From assembly GCA_002713215.1 (NCBI GenBank), contig PAVO01000019.1, positions 186,001-250,000 of the forward strand: a DNA stretch of 64,000 nt, read 5' to 3'. The position numbers were made by a program, and so were the translations under genes. The stretch is from Crocinitomicaceae bacterium. GTDB taxonomy: Bacteria; Bacteroidota; Bacteroidia; Flavobacteriales_G; Salibacteraceae. Of this stretch, positions 54,743 to 64,000 are shown in pieces. Within the stretch, counting starts at the first letter, position 1, and the number at the start of each line of letters is the position of its first letter. The notes under the pieces are model-generated. The model had not been told where the DNA came from, did not search any database, and saw nothing but the letters and a program-made list of their open reading frames with translations.

Positions 54743-56072
54743 CTGCTGAGTCCTCACCGGGCAATATAGATACTTTTATGGTGTTTATTTTCCGTTGATC
54801 TGCTGATTCTATCTTAAACTGATAGTTTTCAAAGAGTACTTTCTCTCCTTTTAAAGGGATTCGCCCTGCGATTTCAATTACAATTCCACCAATACTGTCA
54901 GAATCACCTTTAGCATTTTCAAAGAGTTCTTCATTGGCATCGGTAATTCGGTAAAAGTCTTTTAGCAATGTTTTTCCTTCAAAAATGAAATTGTTGTCAT
55001 CAAGTTTTGAATAGGTAATGTCATCATCGTCGAATTCATCAGAGATATCACCAACTATTTCTTCTATTACATCTTCCAGGGTTGCGATTCCAGATGTACC
55101 ACCATACTCATCCACTACAATGGCGATATGCGTTTTTTTCTCTTTGATTTCATTTAAGAGGTCATCAATCTTTTTGTTCTCAGGCACAAAGAATGGAGGC
55201 CTTACAAGTTTTTGCCATTCAAAATCATCGCCTTTATCAATGTGAGGAAGAAGGTCTTTGACGTAAAGAACCCCTTCAATTTTATCAAAATTCTCGTTAA
55301 AGACGGGAATTCTTGAAAACCCGGCTTCGATAATCTGACTTTTAACCGAGCTGAATTTTTCCTTCATTTCTAAGGCAAAAACATCAACTCTGGAAATCAT
55401 TATTTGTTTTACATCGGTATTACCAAAGTTTACAATGCCCTCCAATATTCTTTTTTCCTCTTCTCCAGTTGATTCATCGGTTGTTAACTCAAGCGCATGC
55501 GATAAGTTATCTACAGATATATTGTCGACACGTTTTTTGAATTTCGTATCGATAAGTGATGTAGTTCTAACCAACATTAAACTTATCGGATAAGTGATTT
55601 TTCTTAGACCTAGAATTGGCAAAGACATAATTGAGGAAAGTTGCTTTCGGTTATTTACCGCATAAACCTTGGGCAATACTTCTCCAAACAGCAAAATAAT
55701 AAAGGTGACCAGGATTACTTGAAACAAGAAGCCCAAGAGAACCTGAGATCCAAAATTGAATATGGCTGTCGTAAGGGCACTTGATAAGATGATTATGGCA
55801 ATATTTATGAAATTATTGGCTATTAGAATAGTTGCAAGTAGTAGTTTGGGCTTTTCCAATAACAGTGCTGCAGTATGTTCTCCCTTGTTGGGACTGTTTT
55901 TTAGTTGGTCAATTTCCTGAGGCACCAGGGAAAAAAAAGCTACTTCAGAGCCAGAGACCAATCCGGAACATGCTAATAGAATTATTAACCCTATAAACTC
56001 CAATACCATGTTAAATGTTATGGGGTTGAGAAACGAAAGAATTAATAACAGACTATTCGACGGAGGTTCCAT
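54726..56072 (-). CDS. gldE: Gliding-associated CorC/HlyC-type membrane protein GldE
   Basis: 448 residues. An N-terminal DUF21/CNNM-type domain with about four hydrophobic segments (VSGSEVAFFSL at about 40-50) is followed by paired CBS domains (about 220-350; IMISRVDVFAL, VVDEYGGTSGIATLEDVIEEIVGDI core) and a C-terminal CorC_HlyC domain. The position between gldD and ssb identifies it as GldE. The fold is that of magnesium/cobalt-efflux proteins; the gliding role is known only genetically. Confidence 0.9.
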   Translation of the reverse strand: MEPPSNSLLLILSFLNPITFNMVLEFIGLIILLACSGLVSGSEVAFFSLVPQEIDQLKNSPNKGEHTAALLLEKPKLLLATILIANNFINIAIIILSSALTTAIFNFGSQVLLGFLFQVILVTFIILLFGEVLPKVYAVNNRKQLSSIMSLPILGLRKITYPISLMLVRTTSLIDTKFKKRVDNISVDNLSHALELTTDESTGEEEKRILEGIVNFGNTDVKQIMISRVDVFALEMKEKFSSVKSQIIEAGFSRIPVFNENFDKIEGVLYVKDLLPHIDKGDDFEWQKLVRPPFFVPENKKIDDLLNEIKEKKTHIAIVVDEYGGTSGIATLEDVIEEIVGDISDEFDDDDITYSKLDDNNFIFEGKTLLKDFYRITDANEELFENAKGDSDSIGGIVIEIAGRIPLKGEKVLFENYQFKIESADQRKINTIKVSILPGEDSADEDDN

Positions 56073-56100
56073 TAAATTTTAGAATCAGTGAATAGAAAGA

Positions 56101-56538
56101 CTAAAATGGTAAATCATCATCTTTTTCATCCGTATTACTTTCAGTAGTGCTGGTCGCCTTGGCTTCTCCAAGAGGTGGTGAGTTTTCTTGTTTAACGGTG
56201 TTCGGACTTCCCAAAAATTGAAGGTTATCAACTAAAACTTCAGTAGTGTATCTTGTGTTCTTATCCTGGTCTTCCCAACTTCTTGTTCGCAATTGTCCTT
56301 CAATATAAACCTTGTTTCCCTTCTTAAGGTATTGTTCGGCAAGTTTTACTAACCCTGGTCTCCATATAGTAATGTTGTGCCACTCCGTTCGCTCTTGCCG
56401 TTCACCATTTTTTGCCGTGAAGGTTTCCGATGTAGCAATGGAAAAACTTGCTACAGCTCGTCCTTCTTCAAAATGCCTCACTTCAGGATCTCTTCCTAAG
56501 TTTCCAATGAGAATTACTTTGTTAACACTTCCAGCCAT
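56101..56538 (-). CDS. ssb: Single-stranded DNA-binding protein
   Basis: 145 residues. OB fold in about residues 4-108 (VNKVILIGNLGRDPEVR; EWHNITIWRPGLVKLAEQYLKKG, core TEWHNITIW), a short Gly-poor linker, and the acidic tip DDDLPF at the C-terminus that recruits repair proteins. It follows mutY by 29 bp, and a TAGATTTG box in that gap gives it its own promoter. gldE follows 28 bp downstream. Confidence 0.96.
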   Translation of the reverse strand: MAGSVNKVILIGNLGRDPEVRHFEEGRAVASFSIATSETFTAKNGERQERTEWHNITIWRPGLVKLAEQYLKKGNKVYIEGQLRTRSWEDQDKNTRYTTEVLVDNLQFLGSPNTVKQENSPPLGEAKATSTTESNTDEKDDDLPF

Positions 56539-56554
56539 TCGATTCGATTTTACA

Positions 56555-56562
56555 CAAATCTA
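56555..56562 (-). promoter_or_regulatory. -7 box of ssb-gldE-gldD
   Basis: Minus-strand TAGATTTG in the 29-bp mutY-ssb gap, 16 nt before the ssb ATG. Confidence 0.45.
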
Positions 56563-56567
56563 AAGAT

Positions 56568-57617
56568 TTATATATTGGAAATATACTTTTCCATAAGCCT
56601 GGATACTGGATAATTGTGAAGTTGGTTCAGTGGAATAACTATCCAATTGTGACCATTCTTGTAATTAAATTGCGTTAGTTCCAGTTCGATAAATGAACAG
56701 TATATTATCCGATGGCTAAGAATGTGTTTCATTGGTTCTTGTACCAAAACTACCTTAAAATCATCTTCACTTATTTCTAATTCGCTTTTAATATGTGCGA
56801 TAGCTTTATCTATCGGTATTTCGTGGTTGACTTCCAGGGCTGGAAATTCAAACAGTCCTCCCCAAACCCCTTTTGCAGGCCTTTTTTTAATAATGGTTTG
56901 TTCGTTGAACCTCGTGAAGTAATAATAGATGTGACGAACTTGTTGTTTGGTTTTTCCCTTTTTATAAGGTAGTGCGTCAATTCGATCGTTATTGAAAGCA
57001 AAACATTCCGTGTGAATCGGACAGGTTGAACAATTTGGAGATTTGGGTATGCACTGGAGTGCACCAAATTCCATAATTGCCTGATTCCAGGTTGAGGGGT
57101 CCTGTTTATTTAAAATAGAGTTAGCAATTTCTAAAAACTCCTTTTTTCCTGTTGAACTATCAATGGCCGTACTTATTCCAAAAATTCTCGCAAGCACTCG
57201 ATAAACGTTCCCATCAACAACAGCAACTGGTTCTTCGTATGCAAAGGAGGCAATCGCAGCGGCTGTGTACTCACCAACCCCTTTAAGTTTTAATAACTCC
57301 TTGTAAGAAGCAGGAAACTCTTTTTGTTTAACTATTTGATTGGCTGCCGCAAGCAGGTTTCGTGCTCTTGAATAGTATCCTAGTCCTTGCCAAAGTTTTA
57401 ATATGTCATCCTCTTTGGCAGAGGCCAATGAATCAACATTTGGATAAACCGCCACAAATTTCAAGTAATAACTGAGCCCTTGATTTACCCTTGTTTGTTG
57501 AAGTATTATCTCCGATAGCCAAATTTTATAAGGATCGGAGATGCCACGCCAGGGGAGGTCTCGTTTATTAATTTGATACCAATCTGAAATGGCTTGTTGA
57601 ACATTATATCGATCCAT
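56568..57617 (-). CDS. mutY: A/G-specific adenine glycosylase
   Basis: 349 residues from the ATG at 57617; the frame is open to 57644 but MDRYNVQQAI is the expected start. It removes adenine opposite 8-oxoguanine. Catalytic Glu in SEIILQQTRV (about 38), helix-hairpin-helix KLKGVGEYTAAAIA, Asp in AVVDGNVYRV, and the [4Fe-4S] cluster as C-x6-C-x2-C-x5-C (CIPKSPNCSTCPIHTEC) are all present. The C-terminal NUDIX-like domain recognising 8-oxoG follows (about 230-345). Confidence 0.96.
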   Translation of the reverse strand: MDRYNVQQAISDWYQINKRDLPWRGISDPYKIWLSEIILQQTRVNQGLSYYLKFVAVYPNVDSLASAKEDDILKLWQGLGYYSRARNLLAAANQIVKQKEFPASYKELLKLKGVGEYTAAAIASFAYEEPVAVVDGNVYRVLARIFGISTAIDSSTGKKEFLEIANSILNKQDPSTWNQAIMEFGALQCIPKSPNCSTCPIHTECFAFNNDRIDALPYKKGKTKQQVRHIYYYFTRFNEQTIIKKRPAKGVWGGLFEFPALEVNHEIPIDKAIAHIKSELEISEDDFKVVLVQEPMKHILSHRIIYCSFIELELTQFNYKNGHNWIVIPLNQLHNYPVSRLMEKYISNI

Positions 57618-57647
57618 AATTTGACGTAACGAATTTAGACACAACTA

Positions 57648-57681
57648 TTTGTTTTTTGTATTGTTGATTGTTATATATTTG
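57648..57681 (+). promoter_or_regulatory. Promoter of the HU gene
   Basis: TTTG (57648-57651), a 22-bp spacer and TATATTTG (57674-57681). The 5' leader would be about 68 nt, the longest predicted here, and may carry regulation. Confidence 0.5.
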
Positions 57682-57752
57682 CGCCCCTGTAAAAAATGGG
57701 TAATAATTAAGGATAACAATCTATATATTAATAACATAGAAAAGTAACAAGA

Positions 57753-58040
57753 ATGACTAAAGCGGACATTGTTAACGAAATTGCGGAAGAGACTGGGGTT
57801 GAAAAACACATTGTTCAAAACACAGTAGAGGCCTTCATGGGTGTGATCAAAAATTCCATGACTAATGGTGATAATGTTTATTTACGTGGTTTTGGAAGTT
57901 TCATTATTAAAAGAAGAGCTGAAAAAACAGGTAGAAACATTTCAAAAAACAAGAGTATTATTATTCCAGCTCATAATATTCCAGCATTTAAGCCGTCTAA
58001 AACTTTTGCCAACGAGGTAAAGGATAAAGTAAAGGCTTAA
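57753..58040 (+). CDS. hup: HU-family DNA-binding protein
   Basis: 95 residues, the usual HU length. Seen: MTKADIVNEIAEETGVEK at the start, then GDNVYLRGFGSFIIKRRAEKTGRNI (core LRGFGSF, the arm entry) and the intercalating-type loop HNIPAFKPSK with Pro. It bends and compacts DNA as a dimer. It heads a run of six same-strand genes, with the TPR gene only 2 bp downstream. Confidence 0.95.
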   Translation: MTKADIVNEIAEETGVEKHIVQNTVEAFMGVIKNSMTNGDNVYLRGFGSFIIKRRAEKTGRNISKNKSIIIPAHNIPAFKPSKTFANEVKDKVKA

Positions 58041-58042
58041 GA

Positions 58043-58522
58043 ATGAAATTTACCCAGGGTAAAATAATTGCGATTACTCTGGTTGTCGGTTTGGGCGTAT
58101 TAATTGCGTTCCTTCCTCATAAACCTGGCAAAGAGCAGCCTGGTAAGGAGGTTTTAACACTGGACTCAAAAGTTGATAAGGCGGTTGAAATCATTACTCA
58201 GGGCAAAGGTTCGCCCATGCAGGGGATTAAGTTGCTAAAGGAGGTCATAGAGGAAGATCCAAACAACGAAAAAGCATTGTATTATCTCGGTAATTTTTCT
58301 ATTCAATCGGGGCAGTATAAAAAAGCAATTAATCGGTTTGAGTCACTTACAAAGGTGAACCCAAGCCACATTGAAGGGTGGTACTTGTTAGGGTACTCTT
58401 TCGAAATGGAAAGAGATACTAATAACGCCATTAAAAATTATGAATTTGTTGTTCAATCGGCAAGCAACAAAGAGATATCGAAACTTGCCGAAGAAGGAAT
58501 AAATAAATTATTAAAACATTGA
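58043..58522 (+). CDS. Membrane-anchored TPR protein
   Basis: 159 residues. One N-terminal hydrophobic segment (about residues 7-22) is followed by two to three TPR motifs: EDPNNEKALYYLGNFSIQSGQYKKAINRFE (core EKALYYLGNFSIQSGQYKKA) and NPSHIEGWYLLGYSFEMERDTNNAIKNYE. Likely periplasmic, acting in protein-protein contacts. It is packed between HU (2-bp gap) and the 30-residue ribosomal-type gene (3-bp gap). The partner is unknown. Confidence 0.8.
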   Translation: MKFTQGKIIAITLVVGLGVLIAFLPHKPGKEQPGKEVLTLDSKVDKAVEIITQGKGSPMQGIKLLKEVIEEDPNNEKALYYLGNFSIQSGQYKKAINRFESLTKVNPSHIEGWYLLGYSFEMERDTNNAIKNYEFVVQSASNKEISKLAEEGINKLLKH

Positions 58523-58525
58523 AAT

Positions 58526-58618
58526 ATGCCAAGCGGTAAAAAAAGAAAAAGACACAAGATCTCTACCCACAAGAGAAAAAAGCGTCTTAGAAAGAACAGA
58601 CACAAGCATAAGAAGTAA
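58526..58618 (+). CDS. 30-residue basic AURKAIP1/COX24-type (bS22/mS38-like) ribosomal protein
   Basis: A complete 30-codon gene, far shorter than usual annotation limits. The peptide begins MPSGKKRKRHKISTHKRKKR and is almost entirely Lys, Arg and His with no acidic residue. The GKKRKRHK-x3-HKRKKR-x-RK pattern is that of the AURKAIP1/COX24 family, whose mitochondrial member is mS38 and whose actinobacterial counterpart is bS22, small-subunit proteins near the decoding-side helices. Its position directly before rng and 2 kb before prfB supports a translation role. Homology is recognised by eye. Confidence 0.8.
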   Translation: MPSGKKRKRHKISTHKRKKRLRKNRHKHKK

Positions 58619-58670
58619 TTTGATTGGGGGCCCGGCTCCCTTTCAATCATCTTCTTATACCATGTGGTTT

Positions 58671-58684
58671 ACAATTTAAATTGT
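58671..58684. promoter_or_regulatory. Perfect palindrome spanning the rng start codon
   Basis: ACAATTTAAATTGT is a perfect 14-bp palindrome; its last two bases are the first two of the GTG start (58683-58685). The 64-bp space before it also holds a short GC-rich hairpin. Candidate operator or cleavage/autoregulatory element. Confidence 0.4.
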
Positions 58685-60221
58685 GAACAAGGAGCTCATT
58701 ATTGATGCTTCTTCTGAAGAGGTTAGAATAGCTCTACTTGAGGATAAAAGACTCGTTGAATTACACAACGAAAAGTCTGATAATCAGTATAGTGTTGGTG
58801 ACCTCTATTTAGGAAGAATCAAGAAAATTGTTCCAGGCTTAAACGCGGCCTTCGTAGACGTGGGATACGAAAAGGACGCTTTTTTGCACTACCTCGATTT
58901 GGGGCCTCAACTGAAGTCCCTTAAAAAATATCTTACGGGAATTAGAAAGAAAAAGAGTAAGGAAAAGCTGCTCAACTCTTTCACCTTTGAAAAAGATATT
59001 GAAAAAGACGGAAAGATAAATGACGTCTTAAAACAGGGCCAGGAAATTGTAGTTCAAATTGCCAAAGAACCAATTTCTACAAAAGGCCCTCGAATTACCT
59101 GTGAGTTATCGCTTGCAGGCCGATTCCTGGTTTTGGTTCCATTCTCGGATCGAATTTCAATTTCGAGTAGAATTAGAAATAAAGCTGAAAAGGTTAGGCT
59201 TAAAAGCTTAATTGAGAGCATTAAACCAAAGAATTTTGGCGTTATCATTCGAACTGTTGCAGAGAGCAAAAAGGTTGCAGAATTGGACCAGGATTTAAAA
59301 GACCTGGTAAGCCGATGGGAAGGATTGCATGACAGTATTCAAGAAGCTAAACCACCCCAAAAGATATTGGGTGAGTTAAGTAAGTCAGCCGCATTTCTTC
59401 GCGATATGCTGAACCCAAGCTACAATGGAATAGCCATTAACGAAAAGGTTCTCCATGAAGAAATTAAAGCATACTTAAATACCATTGCACCTGAAAAAGT
59501 CAATATTCTTAAGTATGTTAATAAGCCAAGAATATTTGATCACTTTGGAATTGAAAAGCAGATAAAAAGCCTTTTCGGACGAAATGTAACCATGAAGTCC
59601 GGAGCATATTTGGTTATTGAACATACTGAAGCATTGCATGTTATTGATGTTAATAGTGGAAATACGGCTAAAAAGGACAAAGACCAGGAATCGAATGCCC
59701 TAAGGGTGAACATTGAATCGGCCCAGGAGATCGCAAGGCAACTTAAGCTTCGTGATATGGGAGGTATAATCGTAGTAGATTTTATTGATCAACGTAAGGC
59801 TGAAAACAGAAAGGCGTTACTGAACAAAATGATCGAATTTATGAAGGACGATAAGGCCAAACATCATGTTTTACCTCCGTCTAAATTTGGTTTGGTTCAA
59901 ATTACACGTCAACGTGTTCGGCCTGAAATGGAAATAAAGACATCCGAGACAATTCCAACGGCCGATGGTTCCAAGGAGGTTAGGGCTACTATTTTGCTTA
60001 TCGATGATATTGAGAATAAACTGAAGCAGATATTAGCTTCCGGTCACAAGAAAGTTAGTATTCATTGCCATCCTTTCATTAGGGCATATTTTCAGCAACA
60101 CAAGTATCAGTGGAAGTGGTTGAGGCAAAATATGAAGTGGATTAAAATCACCTCGTCTAACTCTTTGCCTCTGGTAGAATATCATTTTATTGACGAAAAA
60201 GGAGAGAATATTAAAGCCTGA
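58683..60221 (+). CDS. rng: Ribonuclease E/G family endoribonuclease
   Basis: 512 residues. The S1 RNA-binding domain (about 40-125) has DLYLGRIKKIVPGLNAAFVDVG (core LGRIKKIVPGLNAAFVD), interrupted by a lysine-rich insertion (about 85-110). The catalytic Mg2+ aspartates are in LHVIDVNSG and GGIIVVDFIDQ. The CPxC zinc-link that joins E. coli RNase E/G subunits is missing: the corresponding region reads TRQRVRPEMEIKTSET. GTG start. Cotranscribed with the upstream 30-residue protein and the downstream recX. Confidence 0.92.
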   Translation: MNKELIIDASSEEVRIALLEDKRLVELHNEKSDNQYSVGDLYLGRIKKIVPGLNAAFVDVGYEKDAFLHYLDLGPQLKSLKKYLTGIRKKKSKEKLLNSFTFEKDIEKDGKINDVLKQGQEIVVQIAKEPISTKGPRITCELSLAGRFLVLVPFSDRISISSRIRNKAEKVRLKSLIESIKPKNFGVIIRTVAESKKVAELDQDLKDLVSRWEGLHDSIQEAKPPQKILGELSKSAAFLRDMLNPSYNGIAINEKVLHEEIKAYLNTIAPEKVNILKYVNKPRIFDHFGIEKQIKSLFGRNVTMKSGAYLVIEHTEALHVIDVNSGNTAKKDKDQESNALRVNIESAQEIARQLKLRDMGGIIVVDFIDQRKAENRKALLNKMIEFMKDDKAKHHVLPPSKFGLVQITRQRVRPEMEIKTSETIPTADGSKEVRATILLIDDIENKLKQILASGHKKVSIHCHPFIRAYFQQHKYQWKWLRQNMKWIKITSSNSLPLVEYHFIDEKGENIKA

Positions 60222-60242
60222 AAACTATTTTAGCCACGGCTA

Positions 60243-60713
60243 ATGGTTAGAGGTAAAAAATATTCAATCCAAGAGGCTAGGGCTAGGATTTTAGCCTATT
60301 GCGCAAAAAAAGAGTGCTGTCATCAGGATGTTCGTAAGAAATTGAACGAATGGCAGGTGAACCCTGAGCATGTTGAGGAGTTAATAGCTTTTTTAATTGA
60401 GCATAATTTTGTCAATGAAAGTCGGTTTGCCGGATTATATGCAAGAAGTAAATTCAATCAGAAAAGTTGGGGCTGGAACAAGATCAAAAAGGAATTAAAA
60501 TCAAAAAATATTTCTGATTATTGCATTCAGGAAGCTTATTTGGAAATAGATAGAAAAGATTATTTGTTGCGCCTTGGATCGCTCTTACAAAAAAAGAAGG
60601 AAGCTTATTCCGGCAATCAACTTGAAATTAAGTCTAAGGTGTTTCGATACCTTACAAATAAAGGATACGAATACGATTTTATAACTAAGAAATACAACGA
60701 ATTATATGATTAG
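60243..60713 (+). CDS. recX: Regulatory protein RecX
   Basis: 156 residues. RecX caps and inhibits RecA filaments. Three tandem three-helix units: EARARILAYCAKKECCHQDVRKKL (core ARILAYCAKKECCHQDV), EELIAFLIEHNFVNESRFAGLYARSK and WGWNKIKKELKSKNISDYCIQEA. The Asn-Glu-Ser-Arg-Phe-Ala motif is the diagnostic core. It starts 21 bp after rng, and its 3' end overlaps the prfB start by 8 bp, suggesting translational coupling. recA is not in this window. Confidence 0.88.
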   Translation: MVRGKKYSIQEARARILAYCAKKECCHQDVRKKLNEWQVNPEHVEELIAFLIEHNFVNESRFAGLYARSKFNQKSWGWNKIKKELKSKNISDYCIQEAYLEIDRKDYLLRLGSLLQKKKEAYSGNQLEIKSKVFRYLTNKGYEYDFITKKYNELYD

Positions 60714-61810
60714 TGCTGATCAAATAAATGATGTAGCTGGACGCTTGTTAGCGTTAAGGGGGCATCTTTGACTACGATAAATTAAAGGAACAAGTAGAAG
60801 ACGAAGAACAGCAGACTTTAGCACCAAACTTTTGGGACGATCCCAAACAAGCCGAACTGGTGCTAAAGAAAATCAATCAAAAGAAATATTGGGTTACCAG
60901 TTACAACAAGCTCCAGGACTTATTGGATGAGGTTCAAATTCTTAAAGAATACCTTGACGAAGGCGAAGGTTCTGAAGAGGAATTAGAAAAAACGTTTGGA
61001 GATTTAGTCAAACTCCTGGAGGAGATCGAATTTAAAAACATGCTCTCCGAAGAAGAAGATGCACTGTCTGCGATTATAGAAATTAATTCCGGCGCCGGGG
61101 GAACAGAGAGCCAGGATTGGGCAGAAATGCTTTTGCGCATGTACGTTATGTATGGCGAAAAAAAGGGTTTTAAAGTAAGTATTTCCGAAAAGCTGGATGG
61201 CGATGGAGCAGGTATAAAGTCTGCTCGATTGGAGGTGGATGGAGATTTTGCCTATGGGTATTTAAAAGGAGAGAACGGCGTGCATCGCCTGGTTCGGATT
61301 TCACCTTTTGATAGTCAAAACCGAAGACATACTTCATTTGCCTCTGTGTTTGTATTCCCTGTAGTTGATGACAGCATTGAAATAGAAGTACATCCAAGTG
61401 AAATTGTGTGGGAAACGTTTAGATCGGGTGGTGCTGGTGGACAAAATGTAAATAAGGTAGAAACCGGGGTTCGACTTGAACATAAATCGACGGGCATTAT
61501 TATTAGGAATACCGAATCTCGTTCACAGCTGCAGAATAAGGAAAATGCTATGACCTTGTTAAAATCCAAGTTGTATGAGCTGGAAATCCGCAAGCGAGAA
61601 GAAGAGAAGGCTGCAATTGAAGGATCAAAAATGAAGGTAGAATGGGGGAGTCAGATTCGAAACTATGTAATGCACCCTTATAAACTGGTTAAGGACCTTA
61701 GGACCAATTTCGAAACCACGGATGTACAATCAATTATGGATGGAAACCTGGATGAGTTTATTAGTGCCTACCTCATGGAATTTGGGAGTTCGAAAAAAAC
61801 TTCAGAATAG
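60706..61810 (+). CDS. prfB: Peptide chain release factor 2, made by programmed +1 frameshift
   Basis: The first 21 codons from ATG 60706 end at CTT (60766-60768) followed by TGA (60769-60771); shifting +1 to GAC 60770 continues the same protein to 61810. The junction reads LRGHL-DYDKL, matching LRGYLDYD in other RF2 proteins. The continuous frame from 60860 alone would lack the N-terminal domain. Downstream, the GGQ peptidyl-hydrolysis loop (SGGAGGQNVNKVETG) and the SPF stop-codon recognition motif (VRISPFDSQ) are intact. The stop at the shift site is UGA, the codon RF2 itself reads, so the level of RF2 is autoregulated. Confidence 0.95.
60757..60772 (+). promoter_or_regulatory. prfB programmed frameshift site
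   Basis: AGGGGG (60757-60762), a 3-nt spacer, then CTTTGAC (60766-60772). The internal Shine-Dalgarno-like run, slippery CTT and UGA-C context are those of the E. coli site with one base change in the spacer. Confidence 0.92.
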
Positions 61811-61860
61811 TTTTTATACGGACATTGTTTCGGAAAAGTAGGTGATCTAATTACACTTAA

Positions 61861-64000
61861 CTATCGGATGAGATGAAGCTGTCCTCTCTCTTCTTTGGTC
61901 GGCGCTGAACTAACGCCTTCTATGAGCTCATAATATGAACGGTACGATAGACGGTAGATATAAAGCCCAACTGGTAAGGGTTCTCCTGTTCTCATGTGCG
62001 TTCCATCCCAGGATACACCGGCATCATTTGTCTCCCATATTACTGTACCAGTACGATCATATACCTCAAGCTTAAATTCAAGAAACCGTTCCAGCGTTGA
62101 AACGCCCCAAAGTTCATTATCACCGTCGCCGTTGGGCGTAAACGAATTAGGTACCCATACTTGGCTACAATCATCAAAACGTACGTATACCTCATCAATA
62201 TCGGCGCCGCAATCATTAGTGAGTACCAGAGAATACAAGCCTGTAGTTCGAGCCGGATAAATGGTGTCTTCAGATCCATCTTGCCACAAGTATTTTACTT
62301 CCAAAGAAGATGATCCGTTAAAATTAGGGTCTAGGAGAAGTGTTTCTCCTACACATAATGTGGTATCTGGAGTTTGAATTCCAAAATCGATAACGGGGAA
62401 TAAATCTTCTCGAATTATGGTCTCTGAGGAGTCATAGCAGAAAGGCGATTCAAAATACCGAGTAAGAACTTTATACTTTCCGGGTTGTGTAATTAATTGG
62501 GATGTAACCGTTGTATCGGCAATTGTATCACCAGGTTGAATCATTGGGTTCATTAAAGAATCGTCCTTGCCTGCAATATCAAATACTTTATACCACCAAT
62601 AGTGTACATAGCCTGGTTTATTTGCATCCAACTTTACTGTGGTTCCTTTACAAAGGATGGTGTCTCCAGTCCAATCGATGTGTGGCTGTGAGATTTCAAT
62701 GACTTCCTTTTTACCCACATTAAAACACCCCTGGTTATTGGTAACGGTCACCAAATAATCGCCACCTTCTACAACAATAATTTGGCGGGTAGAATCTCCG
62801 GTAGACCAAGCATAACTGACATAATTCCCCAGAGGATCTGCGTCGAGTGTATCACGGAAGAAACGTCTGTTGGCTTCACAATATTTAGTTTGTGCAAACA
62901 CAACAATAGGTAGTGGAATTTCTTTCACTTCTACGTCATCTGTATTTGTACAGCCGTTAATATCAGTAATTCTTACCCTAATTTTAGCAGAAGTATCCTT
63001 TACGAGAATTATTTGGCCCGTTGTAGGTAAAACCACAGGTACCCCACTCTTCATGTCAAACCATTCGTATTTGACAAACCCGGCACCAGCGTTAATTAAC
63101 AAATTGAATTTATCACCTGCGCAAAACGAAGTATCTGGCCCAAGGCTTACGGAAGGTAAGAAATTAGCATTGATAGAAATAGTATCATTCCCTTTACAGC
63201 CATTGCTATCAGTAACAATTACAGAGTACACTCCCTGTAGGGTAACATTAACTTTTCGTGCCAGTGTTGAGTCACCCTGCGGACCATGAGACCATTTATA
63301 ATAGTTATAACCAGGCCCTGCATCTAAGGTGTCGTTTACAGGTGTTCCCGCACAAAATTCTTTATCGGGTCCAAGGTTAGGAATTGGAAGTAAGAATTTA
63401 GCAATTACTTTGGTGTCAGCACCTTTACAGCCATTTTTGTCAACAACTCCAACACTGTATGAGCCAGGAGTAGATACCTTTAAGGTTTGGGTAGTGTCTG
63501 TCGTACTCCACAAATAGGTTTGGTAATTTGCACCCGCATCAAGTGTAATCGTGTCACCAGCACAAAAACCGGTATCCGGACCAAGGTTGATTACAGGTAA
63601 TGTATCGTGCATTATGGCTACACTATCGGTGTTCCTACACGTCGTGTTTTTGTCCACCAAGGTTACCCGGTAAGTAGTGTCATTCTTTACCCACATAGTA
63701 TCCTGAACTCCCAGATTCACACCATCCCAAATTTTGGTATAATTCGTATCAGAGTTTACCGAAATTAAGATACTATCGTTTAGACAAATGGTAGTGTCTA
63801 AGGTGATATTAACCGATGGAAGAGTATCTATTCCTACTTTCAACGAATCCTGATTTAGGCAAGTATTGGTATCTCTCAGAACCAGGGTATTGGTGCTGGC
63901 TGCCTTAACGATTAGAGTATCATACCCCTTCACAAATGGACCGCCATTCCAACTGTATTCCATGTTGGTATCAGTAACATAATTATGTAGAAAAACTGAG
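61861..64000 (-). CDS. Large secreted Ig-like repeat protein with type B T9SS domain, 5' end outside window
   Basis: 713 C-terminal residues are visible; the frame is open to the right edge, so an ATG at 63963 is not the true start. Repeats of about 75-85 residues share an 'LGPDTxFCAGD-x-LDAGxxYxxYxW' opening and 'GxYSVxVxDxNGCKGxD' closing, each with a Cys pair (for example residues matching PSVSLGPDTSFCAGD and GVYSVIVTDSNGCKG). The last 95 residues are the gliding-motility-associated type B sorting domain (VPNSFTPNGDGDNELWG; FKLEVYDRTGTVIWE; PVGLYIYRLSY). A cell-surface adhesin is likely. Converges with prfB 50 bp away. Confidence 0.9.
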   Translation of the reverse strand, partial: SVFLHNYVTDTNMEYSWNGGPFVKGYDTLIVKAASTNTLVLRDTNTCLNQDSLKVGIDTLPSVNITLDTTICLNDSILISVNSDTNYTKIWDGVNLGVQDTMWVKNDTTYRVTLVDKNTTCRNTDSVAIMHDTLPVINLGPDTGFCAGDTITLDAGANYQTYLWSTTDTTQTLKVSTPGSYSVGVVDKNGCKGADTKVIAKFLLPIPNLGPDKEFCAGTPVNDTLDAGPGYNYYKWSHGPQGDSTLARKVNVTLQGVYSVIVTDSNGCKGNDTISINANFLPSVSLGPDTSFCAGDKFNLLINAGAGFVKYEWFDMKSGVPVVLPTTGQIILVKDTSAKIRVRITDINGCTNTDDVEVKEIPLPIVVFAQTKYCEANRRFFRDTLDADPLGNYVSYAWSTGDSTRQIIVVEGGDYLVTVTNNQGCFNVGKKEVIEISQPHIDWTGDTILCKGTTVKLDANKPGYVHYWWYKVFDIAGKDDSLMNPMIQPGDTIADTTVTSQLITQPGKYKVLTRYFESPFCYDSSETIIREDLFPVIDFGIQTPDTTLCVGETLLLDPNFNGSSSLEVKYLWQDGSEDTIYPARTTGLYSLVLTNDCGADIDEVYVRFDDCSQVWVPNSFTPNGDGDNELWGVSTLERFLEFKLEVYDRTGTVIWETNDAGVSWDGTHMRTGEPLPVGLYIYRLSYRSYYELIEGVSSAPTKEERGQLHLIR

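Follow-up and report, generated by a model that had tools for sequence, protein, structure and literature searches.

A 30-codon bS22 gene between a TPR gene and rng in a Bacteroidota genome, and a boxA-like motif at the same junction in relatives

Identification of bS22

We identified positions 58526-58618 of the window (the whole 64,000-nucleotide stretch of Crocinitomicaceae DNA analyzed here) as the gene for Bacteroidota bS22, an RNA-binding protein of the small ribosomal subunit, on the basis of homology to chains modelled in solved ribosomes. The first-pass annotation had described a complete ORF of 30 codons, ATG to TAA, lying 3 nt after a TPR gene and 64 nt before rng, and had placed it in a bS22/mS38 family. 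The ORF was borne out and both distances are right, measured from the end of the TPR gene at 58522 and to the GTG start of rng at 58683; of the label, the bS22 part stands, whereas mS38/COX24 was not reached by sequence. The features of the locus are collected in Table 1.

Table 1. Coordinates of features at the bS22 locus of the window
Feature	Position	Strand	Basis or remark
Divergent upstream gene, presumably mutY	56568..57644	-	ORF; kept beside HU in many class loci
HU/IHF-type DNA-binding protein, 5' neighbour	57753..58040	+	PF00216 6.2e-28
TPR protein	58043..58522	+	TPR_19 9.3e-10; 3 nt before bS22
bS22	58526..58618	+	30 aa, ATG..TAA; chain homology, genome survey, pS/pN
Inverted repeat across bS22 stop codon and spacer	58608..58658	+	25-nt arms, 72% complementary, 1 nt between
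Second inverted repeat, covering rng GTG start	58667..58688	+	
rng, Rne/Rng-family ribonuclease, GTG start	58683..60221	+	TIGR00757 8.2e-126 (over cut-off); PF10150 2.9e-93

The peptide translated from this frame, MPSGKKRKRHKISTHKRKKRLRKNRHKHKK, matched only three PDB chains in a phmmer search, and every alignment begins at residue 1: 7jil_5 (E 2.9e-9) and 9i5v_10 (E 6.7e-9), both gapless over all 30 residues, and Borrelia bS22, 8fmw_V (E 3.6e-6, residues 1-27). The bS22 profile search that the first-pass annotation had proposed, carried out with a 14-row profile, returned the same three chains at E 9.9e-15, 2e-14 and 1.3e-9, and full-length homology to chains modelled as ribosomal bS22 is therefore found by both methods. 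The companion proposal, a search with the AURKAIP1/COX24 model, gave a negative result: PF08213 (COX24_C) gave no match at the bS22 locus even at E<=10, and its best score in the same genome, 12.6 bits against a Pfam gathering cut-off of 23 bits, fell at a different place. Because hmmscan also reported no family, we rejected membership in PF08213. Our profile reached bacterial chains only, and neither the mycobacterial and Cutibacterium bS22 nor mitochondrial mS38 was reached by sequence.

We also weighed whether the ORF might be no gene at all but a lysine-rich frame arising by chance. Its shortness and the empty family scans (no Pfam or NCBIfam family at E<=1) speak for that reading, and because 107 ORFs of 20 aa or longer touch positions 55500-62500, a length of 30 codons is by itself uninformative; in composition, 17 of the 30 residues are lysine or arginine, which makes the peptide both short and more than half basic. 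The ORF is taken beyond chance by its end-to-end match to ribosomal chains, by the profile, by its recurrence across the phylum (matches at E<=0.01 in 377 of the 392 genomes sampled) and among relatives (58 of 60), and by an excess of synonymous substitutions. The two relatives that gave no match are represented by genomes of 54% and 83% completeness, and the genome that contains the window carries a single copy. Over the first 27 codons, comparison with 36 relatives gave pS 0.73 and pN 0.064, so the frame is conserved and under strong purifying selection. Conservation already refutes the spurious-frame reading, to which we assign a negligible probability; the ORF is a real gene, and the original observation is confirmed.

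Although bS22 is nearly universal in the sample, 15 of the 392 genomes had no match, among them all seven sampled members of one family (f37) and five of nine members of a genus (g90) belonging to another family, f25. A profile search of these 15 genomes at E<=10 found nothing convincing, the best match (E 0.23) being of partial length and containing an internal stop. These absences suggest that bS22 is dispensable in some lineages. In f37 and part of g90 we observe either lineage-specific loss or strong divergence of an otherwise near-universal protein of the phylum.

The occurrence of bS22 in Bacteroidota ribosomes is already known, and the gene itself is ordinary. The first-pass annotation had proposed inspecting ribosome maps of this phylum; a bS22 chain is modelled in PDB entries 7jil, 9oz9, 9ozn, 9ozz and 9p0e, and excerpts of two reports describe the protein in the ribosome of Flavobacterium johnsoniae (PMC10618245, PMC10085706). 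The window ORF adds another orthologue to those of this known ribosomal protein, and scans with Pfam and NCBIfam overlook it.

Gene neighbourhood

To place the locus in context we surveyed gene order within 1.5 kb on each side of bS22 at 129 loci, 13 of which escaped our ORF regular expression and were placed from the position of the hit. In this non-random sample, which consists of best or chosen matches and often includes several per genus, rng lay downstream of bS22 at 104 of 105 loci of the window's class and HU lay upstream at 102 of 105; the sole class locus lacking rng (L047) sits on a contig that ends just past bS22. Among 24 loci from other classes, rng was downstream at none and HU upstream at 11. 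The linkage of HU and bS22 is therefore the wider one, and that of bS22 and rng is specific to the class. The first-pass annotation had proposed that the gene would link ribosome structure to the adjacent RNase; the link that we observe is one of gene order and is confined to the class. The TPR gene is less constant, with a match upstream of bS22 at 72 of 100 parsed class loci and at none of L067-L085, and a contig search with the TPR protein gave a single match, to a Vibrio TPR segment.

So tight an association with rng and HU within the class could mean that the peptide acts chiefly as an accessory to HU or to the adjacent RNase E/G, its resemblance to a ribosomal protein being incidental or secondary. 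We consider this very improbable, given that bS22 occurs without a downstream rng at 24 of 24 loci outside the class and that near-identical chains are modelled within ribosomes.

Further downstream in the window, a 21-codon ORF (60706-60780) ends in CTTTGAC shortly after AGGGGG, and a release-factor-like ORF (60860-61810) follows in another frame. The pair resembles prfB with its programmed +1 frameshift. Such an arrangement is notable because, to our knowledge, this phylum does not use Shine-Dalgarno pairing.

Hairpins between bS22 and rng

The 64-nt spacer between the bS22 stop codon and rng is strongly structured. Positions 58600-58720 fold at -43.9 kcal/mol (z -5.67), and the window's junction scored z -5.70 in a survey that folded 67 of the 99 linked loci, taking spacers between 20 and 160 nt long and comparing each with 50 shuffles. 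Across these 67 junctions, the window's among them, z was below -2 in 46 and below -3 in 33. In the eight folded loci of family f5 (L070, L072-L076, L080 and L085) the stem is formed between the bS22 lysine and stop codons and a run of pyrimidines further downstream; outside f5 the hairpins are unrelated in sequence by eye, though recurrent among relatives. Scanning the window junction for terminators gave none of consensus type on the + strand, which counts against simple termination there, and an Rfam-known leader was rejected as an explanation, since only sub-threshold matches were obtained.

We infer that the hairpins insulate an abundant ribosomal protein from a scarcer RNase. E. coli rne controls its own mRNA through a leader, and the structures here might instead form a leader of rng that lets RNase E/G regulate its own message. 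The position of the second hairpin over the start of rng and the recurrence of z below -2 across the class junctions would suit such a leader; the families share no spacer sequence, however, and no Rfam model matches, and we regard an autoregulatory leader as somewhat unlikely, while preferring insulation.

A boxA-like motif in related lineages

The rRNA leaders of the window's class carry a motif of the type GTTC[A/T]TTGA, which we take to resemble known boxA cores. It was first spotted in the spacers by eye. A longer version, of the type CGTTC[A/T]TTGACAT, lies in bS22-rng spacers of family f5 (L067-L070, L072-L076, L078-L081 and L083-L085), a large family that is probably Flavobacteriaceae, and of family f9 (L013, L017, L019 and L027). 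We built a matrix from 13 rRNA leaders and scored 98 of the 99 linked loci, excluding one spacer of 758 nt. At a threshold of 9, chosen after seeing that the rrn leaders score 10.7-19.5 against their own matrix, the motif was present in 16 of 16 f5 spacers, four of seven in f9, none of three in f4 and one of 72 in other families. For every f5 locus, no more than one in 40 shuffled sequences attained its score, the core being like that of the rrn leaders, and among the 12 of 16 f5 spacers that were aligned the core is kept in all 12.

The exact 12-mer GTTCATTGACAT occurs 16 times in six f5 genomes that were selected for having it in the spacer: nine sites are in rRNA operons (seven by Rfam; the remaining two are copies, at contig ends, of the same leader), six are in the bS22-rng spacer and one is inside another ORF. 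A reversed-pattern control found one site across the same six genomes.

The boxA-like junction is not general, being absent from f4, from nearly all other families and from three of seven f9 loci. The window spacer has no GTTC.TTGA core, and its best score is -2.4, against the 10.7-19.5 of the rrn leaders. A pattern search for the 16S start in the genome containing the window found none; among 13 genomes searched in its family, f1, 11 had a 16S-start match, and in those the rrn leader carries the GTTC[T/A]TTGA type. Because f1 leaders share this type and the window spacer lacks it, we rejected a boxA at the window's own junction.

A tentative and somewhat doubtful reading of these patterns is that in f5 and part of f9 a terminator-like stem at the bS22 lysine and stop codons, followed by an rRNA-type boxA, may allow Nus factors to tie RNase E/G to rRNA synthesis, and that lineages lacking boxA, like that of the window, may use strong hairpins instead. 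The RNase E/G family matures rRNA. If the boxA reading is true, Bacteroidota would have an instance in which Nus factors control something other than an rRNA operon, here an RNase, and ribosome synthesis would be tied to rRNA processing. It is this junction in the relatives, absent at the window locus, that we consider the part worth following. Literature searches, judged by the titles listed (10 of 122 papers in one case), which is weak evidence of absence, showed no paper on boxA or antitermination in Bacteroidetes or at RNase G in Flavobacteria, and the text of a boxA scan of 940 gamma-proteobacterial genomes (PMC5725501) mentions neither Bacteroid nor Flavobacteri.

Proposed role and comparison with known systems

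By homology to the modelled chains, the window protein would form a bent helix in the pocket of the 30S subunit that excerpts of PMC10618245 assign to 16S h2, h27, h44 and h45, would touch 23S H68 on subunit joining, and would stabilise rRNA close to the decoding side. Its mRNA is probably an HU-TPR-bS22 transcript, and two structures, the stem at the bS22 stop codon and the hairpin over the start of rng, probably keep high bS22 expression apart from low RNase E/G expression. We hold this joint reading, of a 30S protein in the 16S pocket made from that transcript and set apart from rng by hairpins, with high confidence. The connection with mS38 is drawn from structures in the literature and not from sequence: excerpts of PMC10618245, PMC10085706 and PMC6582356 place mycobacterial and Cutibacterium bS22 and mitochondrial mS38 (AURKAIP1/COX24) in a shared rRNA pocket.

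With respect to regulation, the f5 and f9 junctions resemble the boxA-controlled leader of E. coli suhB and further boxA sites away from rRNA (PMC5725501) in carrying the motif in the leader of an mRNA and not in an rRNA operon. The gene concerned is a different one, rng following bS22, and the motif is absent from the spacer of the window. With respect to the protein, the nearest counterparts are 7JIL chain 5, which carries two names, 30S ribosomal protein S22 and 50S ribosomal protein L38, and whose source organism we take, with the papers, to be F. johnsoniae, and 9I5V chain 10, which is named AURKAIP1/COX24 domain-containing protein. The window protein, predicted from its gene, differs by a few substitutions from both of these chains of solved ribosomes. 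Borrelia burgdorferi bS22 (PDB 8FMW chain V), from another phylum, is a chain of 28 residues of which 1-27 align, and excerpts of PMC10618245 describe it as having a GUG start and occupying the same type of pocket.
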